A DNA stretch of 64,000 nt from Brachybacterium tyrofermentans (GTDB taxonomy: Bacteria; Actinomycetota; Actinomycetes; Actinomycetales; Dermabacteraceae), in contig NZ_JABUXW010000007.1 in NCBI RefSeq assembly GCF_014897585.1, positions 62,001-126,000 on the forward strand. The letters are read 5' to 3'. Made by a program: the position numbers and the translations under genes. The notes under the pieces are model-generated. The model saw only the letters and a list, made by a program, of their open reading frames with translations. It had not been told where the DNA came from and did no database searches. Positions 22,940 through 42,310 of the stretch are shown piece by piece (the stretch's first letter is position 1; each line of letters begins with the position of its first letter).

Positions 22940-22953
22940 TGCACGTTCGTGCA
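22940..22953. promoter_or_regulatory. Candidate SorC operator between regulator gene and glpD
   Basis: TGCACGTTCGTGCA is a perfect 14-bp palindrome ending 12 bases from the regulator start. A further GTGCAC lies at 22970-22975. The core GCAC-N4-GTGC recurs at 34541 near the second SorC gene and at 42269 before the polyol transporter gene. Position suits autorepression; glpD starts 205 bases further on. Confidence 0.6.
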
Positions 22954-23158
22954 CGCGGCTTGCGTGATGGTGCACGGAGGTTCCACGATGGCTCCGGGTG
23001 CCGCAGCCAACGGCGGCCCCCACTGCGACGGCTCCGGCACCAGGATGCTCGGCCCCGACGGCCCGATCTCTGAGGATCGATCCCGAGGTCCGACGTCGAG
23101 GACCGGACCTGAGGAATCAGCCGTCGCGGCGCAGACGTCACGGCAAAGGAGCACCCAC

Positions 23159-24901
23159 GTGTCCGATCAGCATCGGTCAGAACTCACCCCGGGGAACCGG
23201 GCGGAGCATCTCTCGCGTCTTCGCGCCGCGACCCCCCAGAACCCGCTCGACGTGCTCGTCGTCGGCGGCGGCGTCAACGGCGCCGGCGCGGCCTTCGACG
23301 CCGCGACGCGAGGGCTCAGCGTGGGCCTGGTGGAGACCCGCGACTGGGCCAGCGGCACCTCCTCGCGCTCCTCGAAGCTCATGCACGGCGGCCTGCGCTA
23401 CCTCCAGATGCTCGACTTCAAGCTGGTCGCCGAGGCTCTGCGCGAGCGCGACCTGCTCATCCAGCACACGGCTCCGCACCTGGTGAAGCCCATCAAGTTC
23501 GTCTTCCCCTTCTTCAAGAAGGTCGTGGACCGGGCGTTCATCGGCTCCGGCGTGATGCTCTACGACGCGATGCAGTCCGTGGGCCGCAAGCGCGCCGTGC
23601 CGATGCACCGCCACCTCCTGCACGACAAGATGCTCGACGTCTTCCCGGCCCTGGACGGCGAGAAGGCCGTGGGCGCGCTGGAGTACTACGACGCGCAGGT
23701 GGACGACGCCCGCTTCGTGATGATGCTGGTGCGCTCCGCCGCGCAGCACGACGCCTCGGTCGCCAACTACACGAGCGTCGTCGACTACCTCCACGAGGGC
23801 ACCCGCGTGATCGGCGCCCGGGTGCGCGACGAGGAGACCGGCGAGGAGTTCGAGGTCCACGCCCGCGACACCATCCTGGCCGGCGGCGTCTGGACCCAGG
23901 ACCAGCAGGACCTCGCCGGGGCCGACGCCGGCCTCGAGGTGCTCGCGTCCAAGGGCATCCACATCACGATCGCCCGCGACCGCATCCCCGCCGTCCCGGA
24001 CACCGGCATCATCACCCAGACCGAGAAGTCCGTCCTGTTCATCATCCCGTGGGACGAGTACTGGGTCATCGGCACCACCGACACCCCGTGGACCCAGGAC
24101 CCCCGCGACGTGGGCGCGACCGCCGAGGACATCGAGTACGTGCTCGAGCACGCCAACGCCGTGCTCGCCGACGATCTCACCCGTGAGGACGTCATCGGCG
24201 TCTACTCCGGCCTGCGCCCGCTGCTGCAGCCGGTGCGCAAGAACTCCGAGGGCGGGTCCACCAAGGTCTCTCGCGAGCACACCGTGATGGAGATCGAGCC
24301 GGGCCTGTCCGCGATCGCCGGCGGCAAGTACACCACCTACCGGGTGATGGCCGAGGACGTCGTCGACTTCGCGATCAAGGACACCCAGCCCGGCCGCCCG
24401 AGCCTGACCCGTTCGGTGCCCGTGATCGGCGCCCAGGGCTACGAGTCCCTCGTGCGAGACAAGCAGGAGATCGGCCGACGCTACGGCCTCGACGAGATCC
24501 GGGTGGATCGTCTGCTCTTCCGCTACGGCGCCCTGCTCTCGGACGTGCTCGCGCTGATCGACGAGGACCCCTCGCTCGGCACCCCGCTCGAGCACGCGCC
24601 CCGCTACCTGCGCGCCGAGGTCCTCTACGCCGTGCGCGCCGAGGGCGCCCGCCACCTCATCGACGTGCTCCAGCGCCGCACGCGCCTGGACTACGAGACT
24701 CGCGACCGCGGCGTCCACGCGGCGCCCGAGGTCGCCGCGCTCGTCGGCCCTGAGCTGGGCTGGGACGACGCCACGCGCGACCGCGAGGTCGAGACCTACC
24801 GGGACTTCATCGCCGCCCGTCTGGACGGCGAACACACCACCAGCGATGAGCAGGCCGCGGCTCGCCTCGCCGACGCCCCGGAGGTGCCCTCCCGACGATG
24901 A
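23159..24901 (+). CDS. glpD: Glycerol-3-phosphate dehydrogenase (FAD-dependent, quinone-linked)
   Basis: The 580-residue flavoprotein oxidises sn-glycerol 3-phosphate to dihydroxyacetone phosphate and feeds electrons to the respiratory quinone pool at the inner membrane face. The FAD loop V-V-G-G-G-V-N-G-A-G is near residue 37. It is followed by S-G-T-S-S-R-S-S-K-L-M-H-G-G-L-R-Y-L, the classic GlpD block, and I-G-T-T-D-T-P-W and A-G-G-K-Y-T-T-Y further on. I start it at the GTG of V-S-D-Q-H-R, with AAAGGAG at 23145-23151. With glpF and glpK downstream it makes a complete glycerol uptake and oxidation set. Confidence 0.95.
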   Translation: MSDQHRSELTPGNRAEHLSRLRAATPQNPLDVLVVGGGVNGAGAAFDAATRGLSVGLVETRDWASGTSSRSSKLMHGGLRYLQMLDFKLVAEALRERDLLIQHTAPHLVKPIKFVFPFFKKVVDRAFIGSGVMLYDAMQSVGRKRAVPMHRHLLHDKMLDVFPALDGEKAVGALEYYDAQVDDARFVMMLVRSAAQHDASVANYTSVVDYLHEGTRVIGARVRDEETGEEFEVHARDTILAGGVWTQDQQDLAGADAGLEVLASKGIHITIARDRIPAVPDTGIITQTEKSVLFIIPWDEYWVIGTTDTPWTQDPRDVGATAEDIEYVLEHANAVLADDLTREDVIGVYSGLRPLLQPVRKNSEGGSTKVSREHTVMEIEPGLSAIAGGKYTTYRVMAEDVVDFAIKDTQPGRPSLTRSVPVIGAQGYESLVRDKQEIGRRYGLDEIRVDRLLFRYGALLSDVLALIDEDPSLGTPLEHAPRYLRAEVLYAVRAEGARHLIDVLQRRTRLDYETRDRGVHAAPEVAALVGPELGWDDATRDREVETYRDFIAARLDGEHTTSDEQAAARLADAPEVPSRR

Positions 24902-24906
24902 CGTTC

Positions 24907-24961
24907 CGGTGCCCGGCGACAAGAGCCGGGCACCGTGCGGGGCGCGCACCGTGCGCGCCCC
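24907..24961 (+). terminator. Paired hairpins between glpD and glpF
   Basis: Hairpin 1 has an 11-bp perfect stem CGGTGCCCGGC/GCCGGGCACCG with a GACAAGA loop, starting 5 bases after the glpD stop. Hairpin 2 (24939-24961) has a perfect 10-bp stem GGGGCGCGCA/TGCGCGCCCC. Both contain GCACCGTGC. There is no T-tract. They may end the glpD transcript or moderate read-through into glpFK. Confidence 0.65.
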
Positions 24962-25155
24962 AGCGGAGCTCCCTCGGGGCTCCGCGACCGGTCGATCAGG
25001 GTTCCGCCCGACGCGCCCCCGCTCCACGACGAGCGGCAGGGCTGCGCCACCCGAGGGGCATGCCGCGTCCATCGACGCCGCGGCGCCCCTCCCAGGGACC
25101 CGGGCTCGACCGGATCCCGATCCGCACCGACGCGGATCGCTAAGGAGAACACCTG

Positions 25156-25887
25156 ATGGAAACGATCGGAACGATCCTGCTGTCGGAGATCGCGGGCACC
25201 GCGATGCTGACGCTGATGGGTGGTGGCGTGGTCGCCAATGCCATCCTCGGCAAGACCAAGGGCAACGGCGGCGGCTGGCTGATGATCAACTTCGGCTGGG
25301 GCCTCGCGGTCTTTGCCGGTGTGTGGGTCGCCTTCAAGACCGGCGCCCACCTCAACCCCGCCGTCACCCTCGGCCTGCTCTTCAGCGAGGCCACGGAGTA
25401 CGCGCCGGGCATCCCGATGACGGTCGGCACCACCCTCACGTACTTCCTCGCCGAGCTGATCGGCGCGTTCCTCGGCGCCGTGCTGGCCTGGCTCGCCTAC
25501 AAGACCCACTACGACCAGGAGACGGACCCCGGCACTATCCTGGGCACCTTCTCCACCGGCCCGGAGATCCGCTCCAAGGGCTGGAACCTGGTCACCGAGA
25601 TCATCGCGACCTTCGTGCTCGTGTTCGTGATCATCATGTTCGGCAACACCCCGAACGAGCTCGGCCCGCTCTCGGTCGCGCTGCTGGTGCTCGCGATCGG
25701 CGCCTCCCTCGGCGGTCCGACGGGGTACGCCATCAACCCGGCCCGAGACCTCGGCCCGCGCCTGGCGCATGCAATCCTGCCGATCAGGAACAAGGGCGGC
25801 TCGGACTGGGGATACTCGTGGGTACCGGTCGCCGGGCCCCTGATCGGCGGCGCGCTCGCGGGCGTAGCCTCGATCGTCTACTTCTGA
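25156..25887 (+). CDS. glpF: Glycerol uptake facilitator (aquaglyceroporin)
   Basis: A 243-residue MIP-family channel with six expected membrane helices that lets glycerol enter by diffusion. The two pore motifs are H-L-N-P-A-V (Asn67) and A-I-N-P-A-R-D (Asn194). The aspartate directly after the NPAR arginine is characteristic of glycerol-conducting members rather than strict water channels. AAGGAGA at 25142-25148 precedes the ATG. glpK follows 100 bases downstream, so imported glycerol is trapped by phosphorylation. Confidence 0.93.
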   Translation: METIGTILLSEIAGTAMLTLMGGGVVANAILGKTKGNGGGWLMINFGWGLAVFAGVWVAFKTGAHLNPAVTLGLLFSEATEYAPGIPMTVGTTLTYFLAELIGAFLGAVLAWLAYKTHYDQETDPGTILGTFSTGPEIRSKGWNLVTEIIATFVLVFVIIMFGNTPNELGPLSVALLVLAIGASLGGPTGYAINPARDLGPRLAHAILPIRNKGGSDWGYSWVPVAGPLIGGALAGVASIVYF

Positions 25888-25949
25888 TCATCCGATCCGA
25901 CCGACTCAGCGGCCTCGCGACGGAACGTGGCGCTGCGACCTCATGACAG

Positions 25950-25977
25950 CTCATCCATGACGACTCATCCATGACGA
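25950..25977 (+). repeat. Perfect 14-bp tandem duplication before glpK
   Basis: CTCATCCATGACGA occurs twice head to tail, ending 10 bases before the glpK ATG and running up to its AAGGAG ribosome site. Each copy carries an out-of-frame ATG. A slippage event is the simplest origin; an effect on glpK translation is possible. Confidence 0.75.
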
Positions 25978-25987
25978 AGGAGTTCCG

Positions 25988-27532
25988 ATGAACGACGACA
26001 CCATGTACATCATGTCCATCGACCAGGGCACCACCTCCACCCGCGCGATCGTCTTCGACCACGGCGGCCAGATCGTCGCCAGCGGCCAGAAGGAGCACGA
26101 GCAGATCTTCCCGAAGTCGGGCTGGGTCGAGCACGATCCCAAGGAGATCTGGAAGAACACCCGCGACGTGGTCGGCAAGGCGCTCGTGGAGGCCGACATC
26201 AACCGCCACCAGCTGGCGGCCGTGGGCATCACCAACCAGCGCGAGACCGCGGTGGTGTGGGACAAGAACACCGGCGAGCCGGTCTACAACGCGATCGTCT
26301 GGCAGGACACCCGCACCCAGAAGATCTGCAACGAGCTCGCGGGCGACGAGGGCGCCGACAAGTACAAGGAGCGCGTGGGCCTGCCCCTGGCCACCTACTT
26401 CTCCGGCCCCAAGGTGAAGTGGATCCTCGACAACGTCGACGGCGCCCGGGAGAAGGCCGAGGCCGGCGACCTGCTGTTCGGCAACACCGACGCCTGGCTG
26501 CTGTGGAATCTCACCGGCGGCACCAGCGGCGGCGTGCACGTCACCGACGTCACCAACGCCTCGCGCACGATGCTCATGAACATCGACACCCTGGACTGGA
26601 ACGAGGACATCGCGAAGGACATGGGCATCCCGCTGTCCATGCTCCCGGAGATCAGGTCCTCCTCCGAGGTGTACGGGAAGGGTCGCAAGAACGACCTGCT
26701 CATCGACACCCCGATCGCGGGCATCCTCGGCGACCAGCAGGCGGCCACCTTCGGCCAGGCCTGCTTCGAGGTGGGCCAGGCCAAGAACACCTACGGCACC
26801 GGCAACTTCATGCTGATCAACACCGGCGAGGACCTGGTGCGCTCCGAGAACGGGCTGCTCACCACCGTCGCCTACAAGATCGGCGACAACAAGCCGGTCT
26901 ACGCCCTCGAGGGATCGATCGCCGTGACCGGCTCGCTCGTGCAGTGGGTGCGCGACAACCTGGGCCTGATCAAGGACGCCCCCGAGATCGAGGACCTCGC
27001 CAAGAAGGTCGACGACAACGGCGGCCTGTTCATCGTCCCGGCCTTCTCGGGCCTCTTCGCCCCGCACTGGCGCTCCGACGCCCGCGGCGCGATGGTGGGC
27101 ATGACCCGCTTCCACAACAAGAACCACATCGCCCGGGCCACCCTGGAGGCCACGGCCTTCCAGTCCCGTGAGGTGCTGGACGCGATGGTCGCCGACGCCG
27201 AGAGCGAGGGCGTCGAGCTCTCCGAGCTCAAGGTCGACGGCGGCATGGTCATGAACGAGACCCTCATGCAGTTCCAGGCCGACATCCTCGGCGTGCCCGT
27301 CGTGCGCCCGAAGGTCATCGAGACCACGGCGCTCGGTGCCGCCTACGCGGCCGGCATCGCCGTGGGCTTCTGGGACGGCGAGCAGGACGTCATCGACAAC
27401 TGGGCCGAGGACAAGCGCTGGGAGCCCGCGATGGACGACGAGACCCGCGACCGCTACCTGCGCCTGTGGAAGAAGGCCGTCGAGCGCACCCTGGACTGGG
27501 TCGACGACGACACCGAGGCGCTGTACAGCTGA
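25988..27532 (+). CDS. glpK: Glycerol kinase
   Basis: A 514-residue FGGY-family kinase making sn-glycerol 3-phosphate from glycerol and ATP. The N-terminal phosphate loop [26 protein letters not shown], the substrate segment W-Q-D-T-R-T and the C-terminal signature with D-G-G-M-V-M-N are typical of GlpK. Length is normal. GAAGGAG precedes the ATG. Its product is the substrate of GlpD and a plausible effector for the locus regulator. A 16-bp hairpin follows the gene. Confidence 0.95.
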
Positions 27533-27963
27533 TCGACGAACTGCGAACGCGGAGCAGTCGGCGAGGTACGAGCCAGCCGTGCAGTGTTCGCGGGAGGGGA
27601 TCAGCAGTTCCACACAGCTGAACCAGCCGACTGTGACCACGCCAGTGCGCGCTGGGCTCCCATCGAGGGAAGCCCAGCGCGCACTGTCATGGGCGGGGCG
27701 GGTGATCGCGGGGCATGTCACCGTCTGGCAACGGAGGGCGTCTTCGGCCGGGACGGGGCGTATCCTCGGCGTCACCCTTCAGCACCGACGCCCGCACGGC
27801 GTCCCGTCACCATGTCCCCGAGCCGGCCCCGCGCCGCCGCCGGGTTATGACGGGGCCCCGTGCCCCGATCCGCAGCGTTCGTCCCGAGCGCGCTCCGTCC
27901 GACCGTCCGCCCCTCGACCCCCATCCCGACCACCTTCCCCACCCCAGAGATCGGAGTCCTCTC
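27533..27963 (+). other. Intergenic region between glpK and putP
   Basis: The 431-base gap contains the glpK terminator hairpin at 27643-27686. After it come about 270 bases that should include the putP promoter and leader. I saw no supported gene; the long open frames here are extensions or antisense shadows of putP and glpK. A -10/-35 pair could not be assigned with confidence. Confidence 0.55.
27643..27686 (+). terminator. glpK terminator hairpin
   Basis: A perfect 16-bp stem CAGTGCGCGCTGGGCT and its complement surround a 12-base loop, starting 111 bases after the glpK stop. A short T-containing tail (GTCAT) follows, not a full T-tract. It is the longest uninterrupted stem in the window. 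Confidence 0.8.
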
Positions 27964-29538
27964 ATGGATCTCGTCTTCAAGATCATCGCCCTGACGGTGT
28001 ATTTCGCCGCCATGATCGCCATCGGCCTGTACGCCTTCCGCAAGACCTCGGACGGCGAGGACTACATGCTCGGCGGGCGCCAGCTGCACCCCTTCACCGC
28101 GGCGCTCTCCGCCGGCGCGTCCGACATGTCCGGCTGGCTGCTGATGGGCCTGCCCGGCGCGCTGTACATGAACGGTCTGGTCGAGGGGTGGATGGCCATC
28201 GGCCTCACGCTCGGTGCCGGCTTGAACTGGGCGTTCGTCGCGCCGCGCCTGCGTCAGTACACGCAGATCGCCGGCAACTCGATCACCGTGCCGAGCTTCT
28301 TCGGCAACCGTCTGCATGACCGCACGAACATCCTGCGCGTCGCGGCGGGCGTGATCATCCTGGTGTTCTTCACCTTCTACGTCTCCTCCGGCATGGTCGC
28401 CGGCGGCGTGTTCTTCGAGTCGACGTTCGGCGGCTCCTACCTCATGGGCATGCTGCTGGTCGCGGGCGTCACCATCTTGTACACGCTGTTCGGCGGGTTC
28501 CTCGGGGCCAGCTACACCGACGTCGTCCAGGGCATCATCATGATGATCTCCCTGATCGCGGTCCCCATCACCGCGATGATCGTCGTCGGCGGACCGGTGG
28601 CGATGTTCGAGTCCGTGCGCGAGGTCAACTCCACCTTCGGCTCCCTGACCGCCGGCGGCACCTTCATCGGCATCGTCTCCTCGGCCGCATGGGGCCTGGG
28701 CTACTTCGGCCAGCCGCACATCATCGTGCGCTTCATGGCGCTGCGCTCCTCGCGCGACGCGAAGTACGGCCTGGTCGTGGGCATGAGCTGGATGATCATC
28801 TGCGTCCTCGGCGCCGTGTTCACCGCGCTCGCCGGCCTGGCCTACTTCCAGCAGAACGCCGATGCGGTCCTCACCGACGCCACCAACGGCGAGTCGGTGT
28901 TCCTGGACCTCTCGCAGCTCCTGTTCCACCCGCTGATCGCCGGCTTGCTGCTGGCCGCGGTGCTGGCGGCGATCATGTCCACGATCTCCTCGCAGCTGAT
29001 CGTCTCCAGCTCCGCGCTGATCGAGGACCTCCTGGGCGGCGTGGGCATCAAGCTCAGCGCCAAGGGTGCCCTGTGGGGCGGCCGCATCGGCGTGCTCGCC
29101 GTCGCGGTGATCGCGCTGATCCTGGCCATGAACCCGGACAGCTCCGTGCTGGGCCTGGTCGGCTTCGCCTGGGCCGGTTTCGGCGCCGCCTTCGGACCGA
29201 TCGTGCTGCTGTCGCTGTTCTGGCGCCGGCTCACCATGGCCGGTGCGGCCGTGGGCATGGTCGCCGGCGCTGCGGTGGTCTTCATCTGGGGCCAGTTCAC
29301 GCCCGACGTCGCCTGGGGCCTGTTCGGCGATCAGCATCTCTACGAGATCGTCCCCGGCTTCCTGGTCTGCCTCGTGCTGGCGATCGTGATCAGCATGATC
29401 ACTCCTCAGCCGCCGGCGAAGGCGATGGAGGAGTTCGACGAGATGCTCGGCTCCCTCAAGACCGGAGAATTCATCGATCATTCGGCCGACGCGGAGCCTG
29501 CCGGCTCCGGCGCGACCGGTTCCGGCTCGGCGGTCTGA
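27964..29538 (+). CDS. putP: Sodium/proline symporter
   Basis: A 524-residue SSS-family transporter with about 13 membrane helices that imports proline with Na+. Family hallmarks are D-Y-M-L-G-G-R near residue 36, A-S-D-M-S-G-W-L-L-M-G-L-P-G near residue 54, Y-F-G-Q-P-H-I-I-V-R-F-M-A and S-T-I-S-S-Q-L-I-V-S-S. The PutP-type match is strong, though other solutes cannot be excluded. The ATG follows the segment A-G-A-G-A-T-C-G-G-A-G-T (SD GGAG). A perfect hairpin follows the stop. No putA gene is nearby. Confidence 0.9.
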   Translation: MDLVFKIIALTVYFAAMIAIGLYAFRKTSDGEDYMLGGRQLHPFTAALSAGASDMSGWLLMGLPGALYMNGLVEGWMAIGLTLGAGLNWAFVAPRLRQYTQIAGNSITVPSFFGNRLHDRTNILRVAAGVIILVFFTFYVSSGMVAGGVFFESTFGGSYLMGMLLVAGVTILYTLFGGFLGASYTDVVQGIIMMISLIAVPITAMIVVGGPVAMFESVREVNSTFGSLTAGGTFIGIVSSAAWGLGYFGQPHIIVRFMALRSSRDAKYGLVVGMSWMIICVLGAVFTALAGLAYFQQNADAVLTDATNGESVFLDLSQLLFHPLIAGLLLAAVLAAIMSTISSQLIVSSSALIEDLLGGVGIKLSAKGALWGGRIGVLAVAVIALILAMNPDSSVLGLVGFAWAGFGAAFGPIVLLSLFWRRLTMAGAAVGMVAGAAVVFIWGQFTPDVAWGLFGDQHLYEIVPGFLVCLVLAIVISMITPQPPAKAMEEFDEMLGSLKTGEFIDHSADAEPAGSGATGSGSAV

Positions 29539-29564
29539 CCCGCCCAGAACGCCTGATCGACACC

Positions 29565-32822: not shown

Positions 32823-34313
32823 TCAGCCCTCGCTCTGCATGCTCGCGAGGGAGTGGGCGATGTCGCGGGTCGCGGGGTAGAGCTCGCGGTACATCCGGTA
32901 GAGCTCGTCGTAGCGCGCCGTGGCGGCGGGGTCCGGCACGCAGACGCGATCGATCGAGTTCCAGGCGTCGGTGTCCTGGCCGTGGACCGCGCGCGCGGCG
33001 AGCATGGACGTGCCGTAGGAGGCACCGACGGTGCGGCGCGGGATCTCCTGGGCGAGGCCCGTGACGTCGGAGACGATCTGCGGCCACAGCTCGTTCTGGG
33101 TGCCGCCGCCCACGGCGACCACCCGCTCGACGCGCACACCCGCTGCGCGCAGCTCCTCGAGGTGATGGCGCACGCCGTAGGCGGCGGCCTCGAGGGTGGC
33201 CCGGTAGAGATCGCCGCGCGTGTGCGAGAGGGTCAGCCCGGCGATCACGCCGCGGGCCGACGGGTCGTGCATCGGGGAGCGCTCCCCGGCGAAGTAGGGG
33301 AGCATGAGCAGGCCGTTCGCGCCGACGCCGCTCGCTGCCGCCTCCAGGACCAGGTCCTCGAAGTCGGCCCCTCCGGTCAGATCGCGCATCCATCCGGTGA
33401 TCGCCCCGGAGCTCGCCATCCCGCCGGACAGGGTGAAGGTGCCCGGCGTGGTCCCGGCGGTCACCCACATCGCACGGCTCGGGGCCGGCTCGGCCGTGAT
33501 CGCGACCAGGAACGTCGTGGTGCCGTACATGAGCATGACGTCTCCGGGCGCAGTGGCGCCCACACTGATCGCCTCGGCCCAGGCGTCGGTGCTGCCGGCG
33601 ACCACGGGCGTGCCCGCCTCGATGCCGCTGAGCCCCTGGGCGGCAACGGCCGTCACGGTGCCGGCGACGTCGCCGGACCAGGCCAGCGGCGGCAGCTCCA
33701 GTCCCGGCGCGACCTGCTCGGCCCAGGGTCGATGCCAGTCCAGGGTCTCGGTGTCGTAGAGCGGGGTGACCATGCTGGCGCTCGCGTGATCGAGCACGTA
33801 CTCGCCGGTGAGGCGGAACGCGAGATAGGACGACGGCATGAACAGGTGCGTCGCCCGGGAGAAGACGTCGGGCTCGTGATCGGCGACCCAGCGGATCTTC
33901 GGGCCGGCGGCCTGGGAGGAGAGCACGCAGCCGCTGCGGGCGAGGATCTCGTCCTCGCCGAAGCAGTCGGTGAGCTCCTGGATCTGCCGCTCGGCGCGGG
34001 TGTCGACCCCGTAGAGGATCGCGGGGCGCACGGGCTCCCCGGCGTCGTCGGCCAGCACCACGCACGGGCCCATCCCCGACACGCCGATCCCGGTGACGCG
34101 AACATCTGTGCCGGCGGTGAGCTCGGCGGAGATCCCGACGAACTCCTCCCACCACACCCGGGCGTCCATCTCGACATGGCCGGGCGCGGGACGCTCGACG
34201 GCGTGCTCCCGGGTCGCCGTGCGCAGGATCGTCCCGTCGAGCGCGACGAGCACCCCCTTGGCGCTGGACGTGCCGATATCGACGCCGAGCACAGCCTCCT
34301 CGTACTTCGTCAT
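32823..34313 (-). CDS. FGGY-family carbohydrate kinase (xylulokinase/gluconokinase/EryA-like), substrate unassigned
   Basis: A 496-residue ATP-dependent sugar or polyol kinase. The N-terminal phosphate loop G-V-D-I-G-T-S-S-A-K-G-V-L, G-I-G-V-S-G-M-G-P-C and the C-terminal V-G-G-G-T-Q-N-E-L-W define the FGGY family. The start is the ATG of MTKYEEA with AAAGGG upstream. It diverges from a SorC-type regulator beside the erythritol genes. Brucella-type erythritol kinase EryA is also FGGY, so a tetritol or keto-sugar substrate is possible, as are xylulose and related sugars. Sequence alone does not decide. It heads the minus-strand group with the GDE-type and SMP-30 genes. Confidence 0.87.
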   Translation of the reverse strand: MTKYEEAVLGVDIGTSSAKGVLVALDGTILRTATREHAVERPAPGHVEMDARVWWEEFVGISAELTAGTDVRVTGIGVSGMGPCVVLADDAGEPVRPAILYGVDTRAERQIQELTDCFGEDEILARSGCVLSSQAAGPKIRWVADHEPDVFSRATHLFMPSSYLAFRLTGEYVLDHASASMVTPLYDTETLDWHRPWAEQVAPGLELPPLAWSGDVAGTVTAVAAQGLSGIEAGTPVVAGSTDAWAEAISVGATAPGDVMLMYGTTTFLVAITAEPAPSRAMWVTAGTTPGTFTLSGGMASSGAITGWMRDLTGGADFEDLVLEAAASGVGANGLLMLPYFAGERSPMHDPSARGVIAGLTLSHTRGDLYRATLEAAAYGVRHHLEELRAAGVRVERVVAVGGGTQNELWPQIVSDVTGLAQEIPRRTVGASYGTSMLAARAVHGQDTDAWNSIDRVCVPDPAATARYDELYRMYRELYPATRDIAHSLASMQSEG

Positions 34314-34540
34314 CGACCAGCCCTTTCGTCGCCGCCTCGGCGTGATGGCCCGGTCGGATCCGCCGATGGGCCTGCTCCATACTGCCACTGACCGCGCCCC
34401 GATATGCGTCGCTCCGGCACCGCGGCCCGGACCCGTACCCGGGCTCGGATCGCCTCCCGGGAGGGGGCCCGATCTGCTCGGCGTGGGCGCGCCCGGCTCC
34501 GACGTCGATAGGATCGGCAGGCAGAACATATGTGACCCGG

Positions 34541-34552
34541 GCACATCCGTGC
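34541..34552. promoter_or_regulatory. Candidate SorC operator in the kinase/regulator divergent region
   Basis: GCACATCCGTGC is a perfect GCAC-N4-GTGC inverted repeat, the same core as at 22941-22952 and 42269-42280. On the kinase (minus) strand TATGTTCTG follows 10 bases later, as it does 6 bases after the site at 42269. It lies 79 bases before the regulator start. Confidence 0.55.
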
Positions 34553-35582: not shown

Positions 35583-35906
35583 TCGGGACAGGGCGGGACG
35601 GAACGGGGGCTGAGTAGGACGGAACGGGACTGAGCAGGTCTGGGCGGATCGTCGCCCGCCCTTGGGTCTGTCCTGGTGTCCGCCCCTATGCCTGCCACAG
35701 TGCCTGCCTCTGCCCCCGCCTCTGCGCACGCCACGTGCCGACATCACGGTCGAACATTTGTGCTTGACGAATGTGCGTCCTGTGCCTAGGCTCACAGGTG
35801 ACCGGCTTCTGCGGCCCGGGGTGGCCAGGCCCTCCGAGCGGATCCGTGGACGGCGGCCGCCGGTGCCGCGCAGTGAGCCTGAACGTAGTGAAGGAGAAGT
35901 GTCGAG
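35583..35906 (+). other. Intergenic region upstream of eltD
   Basis: The first 60 bases after the regulator gene iterate GGACGGAACGGG/GGGACTGAGCAGG units. A pyrimidine-rich stretch of TGCCTGCCTCTGCC type follows at 35670-35725. The operator and promoter lie at 35754-35792. About 110 bases of untranslated leader then precede the eltD ribosome site. No gene is seen. Confidence 0.6.
35754..35792 (+). promoter_or_regulatory. eltD promoter with embedded operator
   Basis: ACATTTGTGCTTGACG followed by AATGT contains the -35 hexamer TTGACG (35764-35769). A 17-base spacer leads to TAGGCT (35787-35792) as -10. The 21-bp block matches that before the polyol MFS gene (42271-42291) at 20 positions. The block has weak dyad symmetry (ACATT...AATGT) spanning the -35, so a bound repressor would block polymerase. 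Confidence 0.72.
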
Positions 35907-36995
35907 ATGACCGATGTCCCCAAGACCATGCAGGCCGTGGTGATGCACGCGCCCGAGGACTACCGCCTCGAGGACAAGGACGTGCCCACCCCCGCCGCCG
36001 ATGAGCTGCTGATCCGGGTCGAGGCCGTCGGCGTCTGCGCGAGCGACCTGAAGGCATACGCCGGTGCCGCCAAGTTCTGGGGCGACGAGAACCGTGAGCG
36101 CTGGGTCGAGCCCGGCATCACCCCCGGCCACGAGATCACCGGCCTGGTCGTCACCGGGTCCGACGAGGCGCTCGCGCTGCATGGCGTGAAGCTCGGGGAC
36201 AGGATCGTCGTCGAGCAGATCGTGCCCTGTGAGGAGTGCATGTACTGCAAGCGCGGCTGGTACTGGATGTGCGGCCCGCACGACATGTTCGGCTTCAAGC
36301 ACTACGACGGCGGCATGGCCGAGTACATGATCGTGCCCTCGCTCGCCCGCGCCCACACGATCTCCCCCGAGATCCCGCCGCACCACGCCGCGTTCGCCGA
36401 GCCCCTGAGCTGCTCGCTGCACGCCGTCGAGCGCGCGCAGCTCACCTTCGACGACGTCGTGGTCGTCGCCGGCGCCGGCCCGATCGGCCTCGGCGCGATC
36501 ATCGGTGCCTCGCACAAGACCCCCAAGATGGTCATCGCCCTCGACTTCGACGAGCACAAGCTCGAGCTCGCGAAGAAGTGCGGAGCGGACCTCACCCTGA
36601 ACCCCTCGAAGGTCGATGTCTACGAGGAGATCCGCGCCCTGACCGGCGGCTATGGGGCCGACGTGTACATCGAGTGCACCGGCCACCCCAGTGCGGTCTC
36701 GCAGGGACTGAACCTGCTGCGCAAGCTGGGCCGCTACGTCGAGTACTCGGTGTTCAAGGAGAACGTGTCGGTGGACTGGTCGATCATCTCCGACGACAAG
36801 GAGCTCGACGTGCTCGGCGCCCACCTCGGCCCGCACTGCTGGCCCGCCGCCATCAAGATCATCGAGTCCGGCGTGCTGCCGCTCGACGAGATCTGCACCC
36901 ACCAGTTCGGCCTGAAGGACGTCCAGAAGGCCCTCGACACCGTCGCCGACTCCGCCGGCGCCTCGATCAAGGTCTCGATCCTCCCCGGAACCTGA
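35907..36995 (+). CDS. eltD: Erythritol/L-threitol dehydrogenase, zinc-dependent, NAD-linked
   Basis: A 362-residue medium-chain dehydrogenase very close in pattern to the Mycobacterium smegmatis EltD, which oxidises erythritol to D-erythrulose and L-threitol to L-erythrulose. Catalytic zinc ligands are Cys44 (V-C-A-S-D-L-K), His75-Glu76 (G-H-E) and Glu165 (F-A-E-P-L-S-C-S-L-H-A-V-E-R). Structural zinc cysteines are 108, 111, 114 and 122. The NAD loop is G-A-G-P-I-G at 189-194. S-I-I-S-D-D-K-E-L-D-V-L-G-A-H-L-G-P is shared with that enzyme. AAGGAG precedes the ATG. It supplies D-erythrulose to the kinase encoded at 43819. Confidence 0.88.
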   Translation: MTDVPKTMQAVVMHAPEDYRLEDKDVPTPAADELLIRVEAVGVCASDLKAYAGAAKFWGDENRERWVEPGITPGHEITGLVVTGSDEALALHGVKLGDRIVVEQIVPCEECMYCKRGWYWMCGPHDMFGFKHYDGGMAEYMIVPSLARAHTISPEIPPHHAAFAEPLSCSLHAVERAQLTFDDVVVVAGAGPIGLGAIIGASHKTPKMVIALDFDEHKLELAKKCGADLTLNPSKVDVYEEIRALTGGYGADVYIECTGHPSAVSQGLNLLRKLGRYVEYSVFKENVSVDWSIISDDKELDVLGAHLGPHCWPAAIKIIESGVLPLDEICTHQFGLKDVQKALDTVADSAGASIKVSILPGT

Positions 36996-37001
36996 CCCGT
37001 C

Positions 37002-37030
37002 CGGCCGCGGTGCCGACGGCTCCGCGGCCG
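37002..37030 (+). terminator. Hairpin after eltD
   Basis: CGGCCGCGG and its complement CCGCGGCCG form a perfect 9-bp stem around an 11-base loop, 7 bases after the eltD stop. No T-tract follows. It may be a terminator or an attenuating element. Confidence 0.5.
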
Positions 37031-37118
37031 CCGACGCCGACGTCGTGGTCGGAGCGTCCCGCCTGACGCTCCGGCCACGGGGTCCCGGCGATCAGCCGCT
37101 GCCCATCCCACCTACGAG

Positions 37119-37240
37119 CCTTCCGGATCGCAGTCGTTCCGGACCACCTCACCCCTAGTCGTTCCGGACCGCAGCCGTTCCGGATCACTTCACCCCGCTG
37201 GGCGTTCCGGACCGCAGCCGCTCCGGATCACCAGCTGTCG
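37119..37240 (+). repeat. 41-43 bp direct repeat, three copies, rich in TTCCGGA
   Basis: Copies begin at about 37119, 37160 and 37203. Each carries two TTCCGGA- or CTCCGGA-type palindromes about 14 bases apart, followed by a CAC-rich half. The second and third copies share CGTTCCGGACCGCAGCCG exactly. Regular spacing of half-palindromes could serve a regulator, but simple repeat expansion is equally possible. Confidence 0.75.
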
Positions 37241-37414
37241 ATCAGCACCACGGACGTCCGGTGAGCTCGACGCCGAGCTCGCCATCCCGCCGCACACGGC
37301 CCGCCGATGAGGGCAGGCCCGCGCCTCCCATCCAGGCCACCGCGTGGTCTGCCCCCGGTCCCGTCGCCGCCCGCAGCAGACGGCCCGCCGGGCCCCTCCA
37401 GAGGAAGGCTCTCC

Positions 37415-38089
37415 ATGAGCACAGCAGCAGTCGCCGAGCACGGGAGCCGCCCCCGCCCGGCGCGCCCGCCGAAGAGGCACCTGGGCCGGTGGATCGCCGC
37501 CGCGCTCACGGTGCTCGCCCTTCTCGTCGTGGTCCTGGGCACCAAGGTGGTGCCCGACGGGCAGGAGGAGGTCGCCGGGCCCGCCGCGTTCGACAAGGCC
37601 ACCTTCGGAGCGCAGGAGTTCCCGACGGTGCAGAAGCAGGTCACCGAGCAGGCGGTCCCCGCGACGGAGCTGGCCGCGGCGATCGCCGCGGACCCGAAGG
37701 CTGCCGCCGCGGACCATGGCGTCGAGGCGGCCGGCAACACCGTGTACAGCACCACCTTCACCGGCACGGTCGGGGAGGGGCAGGCCGGTATCTACGACGT
37801 CGCCATCGAGGGCATGCCGAAGAACGTCACCGTGCGGATCCAGACCGGCCCGGCCATCAACGGCACCGAGCTCCGCGACGCCACCGGGAACTACGGCTTC
37901 GGCCAGTTCACGAACCAGATCGAGTTCCAGGACGCCGGCGCCGCCCTCAACGAGGAGATGAAGAAGCAGGTCCTGGATCCGGTCGATCCGAGCACGCTGA
38001 GCGGGAAGACGGTCACCGTGACCGGTGCCTTCACCGCCATCAACCCCGAGGGCTGGCTCGTCACCCCCGTCTCCCTGGAGGTGGCATGA
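37415..38089 (+). CDS. DUF2291 family exported protein of a sugar ABC transporter operon
   Basis: A 224-residue protein with an inner tail, one membrane or signal segment at about residues 26-44 and an outer domain. The domain carries D-G-Q-E-E-V-A-G-P-A-A-F-D-K and G-P-A-I-N-G-T-E-L-R-D-A, typical of DUF2291. The family almost always lies in front of ribose-type ABC genes and is thought to be periplasmic, with no known activity. It has no lipobox cysteine here. AGGAAGG precedes the ATG. Its end overlaps the ATPase gene (ATGA), so the two are translated together. Confidence 0.82.
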   Translation: MSTAAVAEHGSRPRPARPPKRHLGRWIAAALTVLALLVVVLGTKVVPDGQEEVAGPAAFDKATFGAQEFPTVQKQVTEQAVPATELAAAIAADPKAAAADHGVEAAGNTVYSTTFTGTVGEGQAGIYDVAIEGMPKNVTVRIQTGPAINGTELRDATGNYGFGQFTNQIEFQDAGAALNEEMKKQVLDPVDPSTLSGKTVTVTGAFTAINPEGWLVTPVSLEVA

Positions 38090-39639
38090 GCACCGCGACC
38101 GGGTCCGTCGCACCGGAGGACAGTACCCGTGGCGACAGGGTGCTGGAGGCCCGTGACATCGTGAAGACCTACGGCGGCACCCGGGCGCTGAAGGGCGTGA
38201 ACTTCGAGATCCACCGCGGCGAGGTCACCACCTTGTTCGGGGAGAACGGGGCCGGCAAGTCCACGCTCATGAAGATCCTCTCCGGCGTGGAGCAGCCCAC
38301 CTCGGGGCAGATCGTCCTCGAGGGCGAGCCGGTCACCTTCGCCACCACGAACGACGCGCGCGACCACGGCATCGCGATCATCCATCAGGAGCTGAGCCTC
38401 GCCCCGAACCTCTCGGTGCGCGACAACATCTTCCTGGGCCGCGAGATCACCAGAAACGGGGGAGTGGACTTCGCCGAGGAGACCCGGCAGACCGCCGCGC
38501 TCCTGGCGGAGATGCACCTGGACGTGGACCCCTCCACGATGGTCGGGGACCTGCGGGTGGGCCAGCAGCAGATCATCGAGATCGCGCGCGCCCTGTCGAT
38601 CGACGCCCGCATCCTCATCATGGACGAGCCGACGTCGGCCCTCGCCGCCCGCGAGGTCGAGATCCTGTTCGAGATCATCGAGGACCTCACCTCCCGTGGC
38701 GTCTCCCTGGTCTACATCTCGCACCACCTCGAAGAGGCTCTGCGGGTCACCGACCATGCGGTGGTGCTGCGGGACGGCTCCATGACCGCCCGCGGCCGAC
38801 GCGAGGAGATCGACCTGGACTGGATCGTGCGGCACATGGTCGGCGAGAACTTCGACCTCGGCACCGCCCCGCAGGGCTACGACTTCGGGGAACCGGTGCT
38901 GGAGATCCAGGAGCTCACGGTGCTGGACCCCGAGAATCCTGAGCGCGCGGTCGTGGATCAGCTGTCCCTCGAGGTCCGCGAGGGTGAGATCGTCTGCGTC
39001 TACGGCCTCATGGGGGCCGGTCGCACGGAGCTGCTCGAGGCCGTCGCCGGTCGCGGGGAGATCGCCGGGGGCCGGATCCTGTTCCGCGGCGAGGAGCTCG
39101 GCACCGAATCGATCCGCGATCGCCTCGCGATGGGCATCGGCCTGGTCCCCGAGGACCGTCAGCGCGACGGATTGGTGCCGACGATGACCGTCGGCCAGAA
39201 CCTCACCCTGGCGAGCATCACGCAGTTCCTGCGTCGCGGCTTGACCTCGCGTCGTGCGGAGACGTCCCTGGCCACAGGGTTGATCCACGACGTCACCGTG
39301 AAGGCGCCCGGGCCCGACGTCAGCATCGGGTCGCTCTCCGGCGGCAACCAGCAGAAGGTCGTCATCGGCAAGATCCTCGCGACCCGGCCCGGCGTGATGC
39401 TGCTGGACGAGCCCAGCCGCGGCATCGACATCGGCGCCAAGTCCGAAGTCTTCGGCCTGCTCGCGGACCGTGCCCGCGAAGGGCTGGCCGTCGTGTTCTC
39501 CACCTCCGAGATCGAGGAGTGCTTCGGCATCGCCCATCGCATCGTCGTGCTGCACCGCGGCCGCATCTCCGCCGAGTTCGGGCCCGACGCCGAGAAGGCC
39601 GACGTCATGGCCGCCTCCGGCGAAGTCGTCTCCTCCTGA
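38086..39639 (+). CDS. Ribose-type (RbsA) sugar ABC transporter ATP-binding protein
   Basis: A 517-residue duplicated ATPase of the CUT2 class. The N-terminal cassette has Walker A G-E-N-G-A-G-K-S-T and Walker B L-I-M-D-E-P-T-S-A-L-A. Its signature region is V-G-Q-Q-Q, degenerate as usual for RbsA. The second cassette has the atypical Walker A G-L-M-G-A-G-R-T-E and signature L-S-G-G-N-Q-Q-K with D-E-P-S-R-G-I-D. It should drive uptake of a pentose, tetritol or similar solute by the permease and binding protein encoded next. Substrate is inferred from the neighbouring eltD and derK-type genes. Confidence 0.9.
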   Translation: MSTATGSVAPEDSTRGDRVLEARDIVKTYGGTRALKGVNFEIHRGEVTTLFGENGAGKSTLMKILSGVEQPTSGQIVLEGEPVTFATTNDARDHGIAIIHQELSLAPNLSVRDNIFLGREITRNGGVDFAEETRQTAALLAEMHLDVDPSTMVGDLRVGQQQIIEIARALSIDARILIMDEPTSALAAREVEILFEIIEDLTSRGVSLVYISHHLEEALRVTDHAVVLRDGSMTARGRREEIDLDWIVRHMVGENFDLGTAPQGYDFGEPVLEIQELTVLDPENPERAVVDQLSLEVREGEIVCVYGLMGAGRTELLEAVAGRGEIAGGRILFRGEELGTESIRDRLAMGIGLVPEDRQRDGLVPTMTVGQNLTLASITQFLRRGLTSRRAETSLATGLIHDVTVKAPGPDVSIGSLSGGNQQKVVIGKILATRPGVMLLDEPSRGIDIGAKSEVFGLLADRAREGLAVVFSTSEIEECFGIAHRIVVLHRGRISAEFGPDAEKADVMAASGEVVSS

Positions 39640-39665
39640 CCCTGCTCCCTGAACGGATACGCCTC

Positions 39666-40985
39666 ATGACCTCCACCGCCGCAGGCGACGCGCCCCGGAT
39701 GCCCGACAGCCCGACCCCCGACAGTCCGACGCCCGACAGCTCGAAGCGGGGCTCGTCGACATCTGGCTCCTCGACGCGGGAGCGCTCCTCGCTCGACATC
39801 TCCAAGGTCCTCATCGAGAGTCGGGCCTTCCTGGCCCTCGCGCTGATCATCGTCATCTTCTCGCTGCTGTCCCCGAACTTCCTCACGGTCGACAACCTCC
39901 TGATCATGTCCTCCCACGTGGCGATCTTCGCGCTGCTCTCCCTGGGGCAGCTGCTCGTGGTGCTCACGGGCGGCATCGACCTGTCCGTCGGCTCGATCCT
40001 CGGCTTCACCGCCGTGATCGGCGGCTTCCTGCTGCGCGGCGTGCCGCTGAGCATGTTCGGGGTGACGCTGTACCCCAGCGTCCCGGCGGCCGTGCTCATC
40101 GCGATCGTGCTCGGCGGGGCGCTGGGTCTGATCAACGGCGTGCTCGTGGCGAAGTTCAAGGTCGCGCCCTTCGTGGCGACCCTGGGCATGCTCTACGTGG
40201 TGCGCGGCTTCGCCCTGCTGATGACCAACGGACGCACGATCAACGACCTCTCGGGCGAGGAGGCGCTGGGCAACACGGGCTTCGAATGGCTCGGGTTCAA
40301 CCGCATCCTCGGCATCCCTGCCGGCGTGCTCATCATGGCGGTGATCGCCCTGGTCATCGCGGTGGTGCTGGGTCGCACCACCTTCGGTCGGTGGTTGTAC
40401 GCGACCGGCGGCAACGAGCGCGCCGCGCAGCTGTCCGGGGTGCCCGTGCGCACGGTGACCGTGTGGGTGTACGTCATCTCCGGGCTGTGCTCGGCGGTCG
40501 CGGGCATCATCCTCGCCTCGACCCTGACCAGCGCGAGCCCCACCGCCGGCAACACCTATGAGCTGACCGCCATCGCCGGCGTGGTGATCGGCGGCGCCGC
40601 GCTCTCGGGAGGTCGCGGCACGGTGCGCGGCACCCTGCTCGGCGCCTTCGTGATCGGCTTCCTCTCCGACGGGCTCGTGCTCATCGGCGTCTCCGCCTAC
40701 TGGCAGACGGTCTTCGTGGGCGCGGTCATCGTGGTCGCGGTGCTGCTGAACACCCTGCAGTACGGCCGCCCCGGCGGCTCGAAGCGCAGGGCCCGACGGA
40801 AGCCCGGGACGGACACGGGCGCCTCGCCGGAATCCCCGTCGGCGCAGAACTCCTCGCCCCAGCGCTCCCCGTCCGATCCCCCGCTGGCTGAGCCCTCGTC
40901 GACTGAAACCCCGTCGACCGAACCCTCGTCGACCGAACCCTCGTCGACCGAGCCTCCGCGCCGGGGGTCACCACCGACCGACTGA
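39666..40985 (+). CDS. Ribose-type (RbsC) sugar ABC transporter permease with repetitive termini
   Basis: A 439-residue CUT2 permease. The membrane core (about 55-360, roughly 10 helices) shows L-T-G-G-I-D-L-S-V-G and Y-A-T-G-G-N-E-R-A-A and G-V-V-I-G-G-A-A-L-S-G-G-R-G-T, all standard for RbsC. Both ends are low-complexity: an N-terminal P-D-S-P-T repeat tail and a C-terminal tail of about 75 residues ending in P-S-S-T-E repeats. These tails should be cytoplasmic and are not part of the family. Start at MTSTAAG, 26 bases after the ATPase stop, without a strong ribosome site. Confidence 0.87.
   Translation: MTSTAAGDAPRMPDSPTPDSPTPDSSKRGSSTSGSSTRERSSLDISKVLIESRAFLALALIIVIFSLLSPNFLTVDNLLIMSSHVAIFALLSLGQLLVVLTGGIDLSVGSILGFTAVIGGFLLRGVPLSMFGVTLYPSVPAAVLIAIVLGGALGLINGVLVAKFKVAPFVATLGMLYVVRGFALLMTNGRTINDLSGEEALGNTGFEWLGFNRILGIPAGVLIMAVIALVIAVVLGRTTFGRWLYATGGNERAAQLSGVPVRTVTVWVYVISGLCSAVAGIILASTLTSASPTAGNTYELTAIAGVVIGGAALSGGRGTVRGTLLGAFVIGFLSDGLVLIGVSAYWQTVFVGAVIVVAVLLNTLQYGRPGGSKRRARRKPGTDTGASPESPSAQNSSPQRSPSDPPLAEPSSTETPSTEPSSTEPSSTEPPRRGSPPTD
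40893..40952 (+). repeat. 15-bp tandem repeat CCCTCGTCGACCGAA, four copies
   Basis: Four units with one to three changes encode P-S-S-T-E or T-P-S-T-E at the C-terminus of the permease. In-frame and probably variable in copy number. Confidence 0.85.
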
Positions 40986-41167
40986 TCCAACCTCCGACCC
41001 CTCGACCCAGCTCTCCATCCACCCAGTCTTCTCCATCCACTCAGTCCTCTCCACCCGCTCGCTTCTCTCCACCCGCTCACTCCTCTCCATCCATCCGGCT
41101 CGCCGCATCTCGCGCACGAGCTCCGACGCCTCCCGATCGGGAGACGTCGCCCTGAAAGGAACACATC

Positions 41168-42187
41168 ATGGAACGCAGGCATTTCCTCTCCGCACTCGGC
41201 ATCGGGGCCGCAGCGGCCGGTCTCGCAGCGTGCTCCGGAAGCTCTGACGACGCCGGAGGAGGCTCCGGCGGCGGGTCGTCCGACGGCGGCAGCGATGGAG
41301 GCGGCGGGGGCACGGACGGCGGTCTGATCACGATCATCGTCAACGACCCCTCGAACCCGTACTGGAAGATCGAGGGCGACGTCGCCGCGGCGAAGGCCGA
41401 GGAGCTCGGCTACACGACCACCATCGGCGCCCACAAGGGCGACACCAACACCGAGAACACCCTGGTCGACACCGCGATCTCCAACAAGTCCGTGGCCCTG
41501 ATCATGGACCCCGCGAACGCCGACGGCTCGATCGGCACCATCAAGAAGGCCATCCAGGCCGAGATCCCCGTCTTCCTCATCAACGCGGAGATCAACGAGG
41601 CCGGCCTCGTCAAGGCGCAGCTGGTCTCCAACAACGCCCAGGGTGCCGCCCTCGGCGCCCAGGAGTGGGTGAAGCAGATGGGGGAGAAGGGTCAGTACGT
41701 CGAGCTGTTCGGACTGCCCTCGGACAACAACGCCCAGACCCGTTCCAACGGCTTCACCACCACGATCAGCCAGTACCCGGATCTGGAGAAGGTCGGCGAG
41801 GAGGTTGCGGACTGGGACCGCACCAAGGGGCATGACAAGGCCCAGTCGCTGCTCCAGGCCAACCCCGATATCACCGGCCTGATCTCGGGCAACGACGAGA
41901 TGGCGCTGGGAGCGATCGCGGCCTTCAAGGAGGCCGGGGCGCTCGAGGGGATCATCGTCGGCGGCTTCGACGGCTCGCCGGACGCCATCGAGGCGATCAA
42001 GAACGGCGAGCTCGCCTACACGGTGCTGCAGCCGGTCGCGACGTTCGCGGAGCTGGTCATCGAGATGGCCGATGACCTGCTGCGCAACGGCACCGAGCCG
42101 GAGACCGAGAAGCAGGCGCTGGACTGCATCCTCGTGACCGAGGACAACGTGGACAAGATGACCGCGCCGTTCACCTACACCGAGTGA
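41168..42187 (+). CDS. Ribose-type (RbsB) sugar-binding lipoprotein
   Basis: A 339-residue type 1 periplasmic-binding-protein homologue. The signal peptide M-E-R-R-H-F-L-S-A-L-G-I has a textbook twin-arginine motif (RRxFL), followed by the lipobox L-A-A-C and a G/S/D linker. The mature part starts I-T-I-I-V-N-D-P-S-N-P-Y-W and contains N-N-A-Q-G-A-A-L-G-A and S-G-N-D-E-M-A-L-G-A, standard for RbsB/XylF-like proteins. AAAGGAA precedes the ATG. It is preceded by a 180-base pyrimidine-rich gap of CTCTCCATCCACC-type repeats. Confidence 0.88.
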   Translation: MERRHFLSALGIGAAAAGLAACSGSSDDAGGGSGGGSSDGGSDGGGGGTDGGLITIIVNDPSNPYWKIEGDVAAAKAEELGYTTTIGAHKGDTNTENTLVDTAISNKSVALIMDPANADGSIGTIKKAIQAEIPVFLINAEINEAGLVKAQLVSNNAQGAALGAQEWVKQMGEKGQYVELFGLPSDNNAQTRSNGFTTTISQYPDLEKVGEEVADWDRTKGHDKAQSLLQANPDITGLISGNDEMALGAIAAFKEAGALEGIIVGGFDGSPDAIEAIKNGELAYTVLQPVATFAELVIEMADDLLRNGTEPETEKQALDCILVTEDNVDKMTAPFTYTE

Positions 42188-42192
42188 GGCCG

Positions 42193-42225
42193 GGCGCCGC
42201 CGCGCCGCGAGGCGCGTGCGGCGCC
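42193..42225 (+). terminator. Hairpin ending the DUF2291-ABC operon
   Basis: GGCGCCGCCGCGCC pairs with GGCGCGTGCGGCGCC (14 pairs, one bulged base) around a GCGA loop, 5 bases after the binding-protein stop. It separates this operon from the MFS promoter 45 bases downstream. Confidence 0.65.
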
Positions 42226-42268
42226 TGATCGTCATCGCCCCACCGATGATGCACGTCGGTTCCCAGTG

Positions 42269-42310
42269 GCACATTTGTGCTTGACGTATGTTCTGGATTC
42301 GGCCTATGGT
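42269..42310 (+). promoter_or_regulatory. Promoter/operator of the polyol MFS-derK-derI operon
   Basis: GCACATTTGTGC (42269-42280) is a perfect GCAC-N4-GTGC inverted repeat that runs directly into the -35 TTGACG (42281-42286). TATGGT (42305-42310) is an acceptable -10 at 18 bases. The 21-bp block from 42271 is nearly identical to the one before eltD, so both promoters should respond to the same regulator. Confidence 0.75.

Follow-up and report, generated by a model that had tools for sequence, protein, structure and literature searches.

The stretch considered here, hereafter the window, comprises 64,000 nucleotides of the genome of Brachybacterium tyrofermentans (contig NZ_JABUXW010000007.1, positions 62,001 to 126,000). 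It forms part of a contig of 175,642 bases in a genome of 4.6 Mb with 71% G+C. Two catabolic loci lie within it, each with its own gene for a regulator of the SorC/DeoR subfamily. One is a glycerol locus, in which the regulator gene is followed on the opposite strand by glpD, glpF and glpK. The other contains genes for an FGGY-family kinase, the second regulator, an EltD-like dehydrogenase, a polyol transporter of the MFS, a kinase of the dihydroxyacetone-kinase family and an RpiB-family isomerase; tetritol, the label used for this locus and its regulator, is its apparent substrate as judged by gene content. Short palindromes related to GCAC-N4-GTGC occur near predicted promoters of both loci and are the subject of this work. 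They are probably the operators of two separate local repressors, and operators of an already known SorC/DeoR kind.

Both regulators have a C-terminal PF04198 sugar-binding effector domain, scoring above the cut-off, and an N-terminal homeodomain-like helix-turn-helix of 50-60 residues that is not of the winged CggR type. The latter assignment is based on matches from near the N-terminus to 8r7y and to the DeoR DNA-binding domain 7bhy, with 29 and 53 homologues aligned. The glycerol regulator gives a full-length phmmer match to DeoR (8r7y, E 7e-41) and its effector domain matches 3nze (E 1e-63); the tetritol regulator matches both SorC (2w48) and DeoR (8r7y) over its full length. The NCBIfam equivalog model for DeoR, whose cut-off is 420 bits, gives the two scores of 205 and 104 bits, and they are therefore relatives of DeoR and not DeoR itself. 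Genes were called with a rough codon-position model and Pfam/NCBIfam profiles, giving an intergenic fraction of 0.196 in the window; the model possibly misses genes near 48394, 49789 and 30508.

A preliminary description of this DNA had listed a 12-base pair (bp) inverted repeat at 22941, 34541 and 42269, in each case outside genes, and a one-base variant at the -35 region of eltD. All three repeats are present as exact matches to GCACNNNNGTGC and lie outside all assigned genes of the rough model. The variant is also there, as GAACATTTGTGC, at 35752-35763, one base earlier than had been given. Sites not previously listed are a palindrome at 34524, an intragenic site at 34100, second halves at 35752 and 42269, and a partial site at 22972. 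Two more exact matches to GCACNNNNGTGC, at 14593 within a called gene and at 48394, make five in the window, where shuffled sequences have a mean of 2.49 and 8 of 100 shuffles reach five or more. Genome-wide the bare word is found 300 times as against 108 times for a reversed control (2.8x). Its count is uninformative, and its intergenic placement is mildly unusual: four of the five matches (P 0.006, rough gene model) and nine of the 11 window matches to the relaxed word GMACNNNNGTKC (P 1.6e-5) fall outside called genes. The sites are more than chance because they are conserved across genomes, and not because of how often they occur.

The orthologues of the glycerol regulator make this conservation plain. 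They are found in all 30 Brachybacterium genomes of the sample, with 59-100% identity, and GlpD adjoins them on the opposite strand in every one (three further genus genomes, L122-L124, also have the glycerol site and are not among the 30). In all 30 the motif GCAC-N4-GTGC stands at -24/-25 from the aligned regulator start, flanked by an outer T and A to give TGCAC-N4-GTGCA, and the surrounding DNA otherwise varies. The spacer is most commonly GAAC, with GGAC, GAAT, GGAT, AAAC, ATAC and ATTC also occurring. The 14-bp word TGCACGWWCGTGCA is present in 20 of the 30 genomes, as a single copy each and always upstream of the glycerol regulator; in B. tyrofermentans, too, it is single and at the glycerol operator. 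A second site, GAAC-N4-GTGC in the direction of the regulator, is complete at -55/-54 in eight genomes, and its GTGC half is retained within one base of register in 28.

The same site accompanies the regulator beyond the genus. Of 149 genomes sampled across the order, 76 have a homologue with E 1e-60 or better (66 from outside the genus and 10 from within it), and loci were compared for the best 20 of the 66 (the best 30 of the 76 overall). Among these 20 the site is found in 17, its distance upstream from the aligned start ranging from 20 to 72 bp; the outer T and A are present in 16 of them. These 17 loci coincide exactly with the ones that adjoin GlpD of at least 55% identity (13 loci) or GlpF and GlpK (four loci); beside the three loci lacking the site there is either no neighbour of this sort or a GlpD match of only 27%. 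Some of these sites outside the genus carry ATAT, AGAT or ACAT as spacer. Elsewhere in the B. tyrofermentans genome five other GCACGWWCGTGC sites lack the outer T, the outer A or both, and so offer no extension of the regulon, and six other TGCAC-N4-GTGCA sites carry different spacers. On contig 14 of the genome (46450-46493, L153-L155) three TGCAC-N4-GTGCA words stand in tandem with a 15-bp period.

The tetritol regulator has a clear orthologue in 24 genus loci (66-100% identity); a further genome, G005, with only a partial match, was counted neither way. GAACATTTGTGC or a close variant lies directly 5' of TTGAC in 22 of the 24, and the remaining two, L021 and L030, leave their contigs. The conserved unit is a 25-bp element of general form GAACATTTGTGC-TTGACG-AATGTTC, in which the -35 hexamer is embedded (-35 and -10 hexamers are predictions by eye). 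It is found in all 20 readable eltD promoters, counting loci with an EltD match only, and in 12 of 13 separate MFS promoters, where a gene for a substrate-binding protein lies between eltD and the MFS gene; L078, with 153 bases before a contig end, was excluded from both counts. Over these 32 promoters the first part reads G(A28/C4)ACA-WW-TGT(G31/T1)(C29/T3)-TTGAC-(G31/C1). The next two bases are A or T, the first in 31 of the 32 promoters and the second in all 32, and TGT-(T20/G12)-(C31/T1) comes after them. The search pattern fixed bases only through TTGAC; the downstream TGT was free, yet it is invariant. The element contains two palindromes of 4-4-4 layout spaced 13 bp apart, GAAC-ATTT-GTGC and TGAC-GAAT-GTTC, the second of which overlaps the -35 hexamer. 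The GCAC form of the MFS element is confined to B. tyrofermentans and two relatives (L067 and L069), the other nine of the 12 having GAAC. In six loci (L076, L077, L079, L080, L081 and L085) there is no match to the substrate-binding protein, and the MFS gene directly follows eltD with no element of its own.

A DNA-only search of 396 genomes of the order with GMACANNTGTGCTTGAC gave matches in 22, namely 16 of the 27 from the genus and six from outside. Five of these six lie between a SorC homologue (40-46% identity) and EltD (65-70%), with similar elements upstream of eltD; the sixth, L109, has neither gene nearby and is coding-like by eye. The 11 unmatched genus genomes include five in which the tetritol regulator has no close orthologue (G004, G007, G012, G020 and G026); the rest are G002 and five others (G057, G155, G169, G183 and G362). 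B. tyrofermentans has 11 GMACANNTGTKC sites, three of them within the 8-kb tetritol locus. TTGAC follows none of the other eight, and these gave no extension of the tetritol regulon. Three of the eight (L159, L160 and L163) are in long frames whose third positions look coding and one (L148:7845) in a frame of 384 amino acids with a third-position G+C of 0.84; the remaining four are L148:4257, L161, L162 and L164. The features of both loci are collected in Table 1.

Table 1. Genes and operator-like sites of the glycerol and tetritol loci, with a related site elsewhere in the genome. Positions are those of the window unless stated; scores are from the weight matrices described in the text.
Feature	Position	Strand	Score, glycerol/tetritol matrix	Remarks
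Glycerol regulator, SorC/DeoR subfamily, 319 amino acids	21969..22928	-		PF04198, E 2e-60
Predicted glycerol-type operator TGCACGTTCGTGCA	22940..22953		25.5/0.3	24 bp upstream of regulator start; kept in 30/30
Putative second, degenerate glycerol site GCACGGAGGTTC	22972..22983		2.2/-2.9	31 bp from the first
GlpD, glycerol-3-phosphate dehydrogenase/oxidase	23159..24901	+		PF01266, PF16901
GlpF, MIP channel	25156..25887	+		PF00230
GlpK, glycerol kinase	25988..27532	+		TIGR01311, 735 bits, above cut-off
FGGY-family kinase	32823..34313	-		PF00370, PF02782
Tetritol-type site GAACATCTGTGC	34100..34111		-2.3/13.9	inside kinase gene, about 210 bp after start
Tetritol-type site GAACATATGTGA	34524..34535		-5.2/17.5	divergent region between kinase and regulator
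Hybrid site GCACATCCGTGC	34541..34552		5.6/6.1	upstream of tetritol regulator
Tetritol regulator, SorC/DeoR subfamily, 316 amino acids	34632..35582	+		PF04198, E 1.3e-42
Composite element GAACATTTGTGC-TTGACG-AATGTGC, upstream of eltD	35752..35776	+	0.7/23.0	predicted -35 TTGACG 35764-35769; candidate -10 TAGGCT 35787-35792
EltD-like zinc alcohol dehydrogenase	35907..36995	+		PF00107, PF08240
Sugar ABC transporter substrate-binding protein	41168..42187	+		PF13407
Relaxed match GCACGTCGGTTC	42251..42262		2.2/-2.9	18 bp upstream of MFS element
Composite element GCACATTTGTGC-TTGACG-TATGTTC, upstream of MFS gene	42269..42293	+	7.1/22.9	predicted -35 TTGACG 42281-42286; candidate -10 CTATGG 42304-42309
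RbtT/DalT/CsbX-family MFS polyol transporter	42399..43775	+		TIGR00897, 455 bits, above cut-off
Dihydroxyacetone-kinase-family kinase, LerK/DerK-like by context	43819..45531	+		PF02733, PF02734; NF011049 above cut-off
RpiB-family isomerase, DerI-like by context	45692..46162	+		TIGR02133 above cut-off
Palindrome TGGCACATACGTGCCA	L006:1437-1448, contig 89 of the same genome			between third SorC gene and deoC-type gene, upstream of the latter

The sequences of the sites, their conservation and their linkage to the two regulators are matters of observation, and they bear directly on the notion that these are chance or codon-driven palindromes of a G+C-rich genome. The bare word invites that notion, being abundant in the genome, matched or exceeded in number by some of the shuffles and present at 14593 inside a called gene. 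Position and sequence are nevertheless kept in 30 of 30 glycerol and 20 of 20 eltD loci, amid intergenic DNA that is mostly variable. Conservation contradicts chance at 22941, 35752 and 42269, and chance is possible for 42251 and 34524; as an account of the whole it is scarcely credible. The preliminary description would have abandoned the motif had it been as frequent inside genes as in promoters, which is not so for the refined words; the bare word alone, with its 300 copies, is no guide. A global regulator, for instance one of the CRP/GlxR type, acting at both loci by coincidence is also very improbable. The sites do lie at promoters, and the half-sites TGTGC and GCACA have some likeness to parts of CRP-type sites, but recurrence elsewhere in the genome would then be expected. 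Instead the 14-bp glycerol word stands beside the SorC gene in 20 of the 20 genomes that have it, five of the six matches to the tetritol word in other genera stand beside a SorC homologue, and the version of the site differs among three SorC loci.

Whether the two types of operator are interchangeable was assessed with symmetric weight matrices built from 29 glycerol sites and 30 composite promoters of relatives, B. tyrofermentans itself being excluded. The glycerol operator and the two composite elements score highly on their own matrices, and the best unrelated matches in the window reach 8.6 on the glycerol and 6.9 on the tetritol model. Each regulator therefore has a clear address, and the sole candidates for sharing are 42269 and 34541, at background level. 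The preliminary description had taken two SorC paralogues to use near-identical operators, with cross-talk between glycerol and tetritol genes as the consequence. The sites do look like operators and do accompany two SorC regulators; that they represent one near-identical operator is not borne out, since the relatives have TGCAC-N4-GTGCA in 30 of 30 glycerol loci versus GAACA-NN-TGTGC with TTGAC at the tetritol promoters, and cross-talk is left unsupported.

A single operator recognised by both SorC regulators, co-regulating glycerol and tetritol genes with the spacer tuning the preference, accordingly appears unlikely. It could draw on the GCAC-N4-GTGC core common to three places, the glycerol-model scores of 7.1 at 42269 and 5.6 at 34541, the hybrid nature of 34541, with one half of each type, and the inner A/T pair possible in glycerol sites outside the genus. 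However, each type scores near zero on the opposite model (0.7 for the eltD element, 0.3 for the glycerol operator), 42269 is outscored on the glycerol model by an unrelated site of the window, and 34541 at 6.1 falls below an unrelated match on the tetritol model. Nine of the 12 MFS elements do not have the GCAC form. Moreover, where no close tetritol regulator is present (five genomes), the glycerol operator is of the usual kind, four having GCACGAACGTGC and one GCACATTCGTGC, so there is no sign of selection against cross-binding. Separate local circuits are thus the more likely arrangement on these comparisons, with 34541 and 42269 the only plausible shared sites. The suggestion that the four-base spacer confers specificity is partly right at best, given the ATAT, AGAT and ACAT spacers of glycerol sites outside the genus. 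Because this spacer varies there, the outer T/A pair, position 2 (A in 28 of 32 tetritol promoters) and the second half-site seem more promising as discriminators.

The tetritol locus contains further sites of more variable standing. The palindrome at 34524 has no equivalent in the 23 other genus loci. The hybrid at 34541 combines a tetritol-like with a glycerol-like half; GCACATCCGTGC or GCACATCTGTGC occurs in seven of 24 loci, at -57/-58 from the tetritol regulator in six relatives and at -91 here, and a G(A)AC-type site is found elsewhere upstream of this regulator in seven other loci of the 24. The intragenic site at 34100 is spelled with rare codons, as counted in ten genes of the window (ACA, 2 of 266 Thr; GAT, 36 of 273 Asp; GTT, 4 of 354 Val). 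It is identical in L009, one base different in L008 (GTG for GTT) and absent from 20 of 23 aligned kinases, and looks like a recent extra operator, a single and unproven case. The relaxed match at 42251 is probably non-functional; when the 22 bases upstream of the element were compared in relatives, a partial likeness was seen in L068 only. A separate block, CTATAGGATCG, lies upstream of the tetritol regulator gene, at a distance of up to about 190 bp, in nine of 24 loci (L008, L010-L013, L015, L017, L021 and L030) and is possibly the -10 region of a promoter.

The genome encodes six PF04198 proteins. The gene for a third regulator adjoins that of a DeoC-family aldolase (PF01791) and has a palindrome, GGCACATACGTGCC, whose inner 14 bases differ by one base from the 34541 site with its flanks. 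Two orthologues of this regulator were found in the 30 genomes (55-57% identity), each gene being followed by CGGCACATATGTGCCG; no deoC match was found at these two loci. For the three remaining SorC genes no such palindrome was seen in the 220-270 upstream bases examined, and L004 has GCACGAGGGTGC and GCACGTCCGTGA inside its SorC gene. The occurrence of the same core at three of six SorC loci fits a half-site common to the subfamily. The likeness of the glycerol and tetritol operators may thus be explained by this shared GnAC half-site, found also beside deoC, and not by a common circuit. The recognition-helix residues SRP and SRS (29/29 and 53/53) do not account for GAAC versus GCAC, since the deo-type regulator combines SRP with GCAC arms.

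Binding, repression, release by an effector, the promoter hexamers and the insulation of the two circuits are what we infer from these data. The glycerol regulator would bind TGCACG-NN-CGTGCA between its own gene and glpD, thereby controlling both. The tetritol regulator would bind the 25-bp element at eltD and at the MFS gene; with the -35 hexamer inside the second palindrome, bound repressor would block RNA polymerase at both promoters. The sites at 34524 and 34541, and perhaps 34100, could control the kinase gene and that of the tetritol regulator. Most likely, judging from the sequences, each repressor would as a tetramer occupy its palindrome and a weaker neighbouring site and so block the promoter, and a pathway intermediate is assumed to release it.

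This scheme resembles known systems in part. The sites have the GnAC/GTnC arms, the 4-bp spacer and the proximity to a predicted promoter of SorC/DeoR-type operators; a second half-operator 20-22 bp away was not found, the distances being 13 bp for tetritol and 31 bp for glycerol. The latter is near three helical turns and the former is not a whole number of turns. In the available part of PMC11229326, the dra-nupC-pdp operator of DeoR from Bacillus subtilis is made up of a palindrome that precedes the -35 and a degenerate second half-operator that follows it. The domain layout of DeoR is, by sequence, common to both window regulators. By our own reading of that source its operator has the same 4-4-4 layout, as GAAC-AAAA-TTTC and TTAC-ATAT-GTTC, and by our count the palindromes are 22 bp apart as against 13 and 31 bp here (PMC11229326). 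The tetritol -35 hexamer, unlike that of DeoR, lies inside the second palindrome. CggR of B. subtilis, with an effector domain of the same family, is described in the same text as a tetramer on two half-operators, and differs in its winged-helix DNA-binding domain, GGGAC arms and an operator downstream of the transcription start (PMC11229326).

Several observations weigh against the proposed pair of separate operators. The 13-bp spacing is unlike the 22 bp of DeoR and the approximately 20 bp of CggR (our counts from the available part of PMC11229326), so that the placing of a tetramer is not obvious. Ten of the 24 loci lack a relaxed-type site upstream of the tetritol regulator, and L073, from a metagenome-assembled relative, has no MFS element. 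G002 possesses the regulator but has a variant eltD site, GAACAAATGTTC, which differs from the searched word and was therefore scored as a miss. Some glycerol sites outside the genus are TGCACATATGTGCA or TGCACAGATGTGCA, near the tetritol core, and the inner base pair is therefore no firm discriminator. The matrices are also narrow, being drawn from close relatives, and their low cross-scores are not proof of non-binding.

As regards substrate, tetritol catabolism of Mycobacterium smegmatis has reportedly been treated by Huang et al. 2015. No tested protein of the second locus passes a tetritol-specific model: the isomerase reaches 152.5 bits on the DerI model NF051858 (cut-off 240), and the dehydrogenase, for which no NCBIfam model is above its cut-off, is called EltD-like from locus content. 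GylR, a regulator of glp genes like the glycerol regulator described here, is an IclR-family protein and so belongs to another family than the Brachybacterium SorC protein. It controls the glycerol genes of Streptomyces according to the available part of PMC9732521. The accessible part of PMC10733421 gives EltD, LerK, LerI and DerI as the tetritol enzymes of M. smegmatis. A dehydrogenase, a DhaK-type kinase and an RpiB-type isomerase are together in one locus in both organisms, and Brachybacterium additionally has the RbtT/DalT/CsbX carrier and the FGGY kinase. The literature searched yielded no operator description for the M. smegmatis tetritol regulator, nor any for the operators described here, although most subscription papers fell outside it and this is no proof of absence. 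Acid production from erythritol and fermentation of glycerol are recorded for Brachybacterium strains in the available part of PMC6090031.

A more elaborate and rather doubtful extension is that the GCAC-N4-GTGC core is common to the three SorC regulators (glycerol, tetritol and that beside deoC), with discrimination chiefly through the flanking pairs, position 2 and the distance of the second site (31 bp for glycerol, 13 bp for tetritol). The 13-bp element might then be a new kind of grip of a SorC tetramer on a promoter whose -35 lies within the operator, and 34541 a junction at which a second SorC protein, of glycerol or deo type, could modulate the tetritol regulator gene.

Operators are predicted here for two regulators whose relatives extend to other genera of the order, which makes the glycerol and erythritol/threitol regulons testable. 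The occurrence in one cell of related repressors, the pair and the third beside deoC, with similar but distinct sites offers a model for cross-binding, or its avoidance, among SorC proteins. The 13-bp promoter-embedded element would in turn test the tetramer model of SorC action, which is based, in the available part of PMC11229326, on two Bacillus operators.

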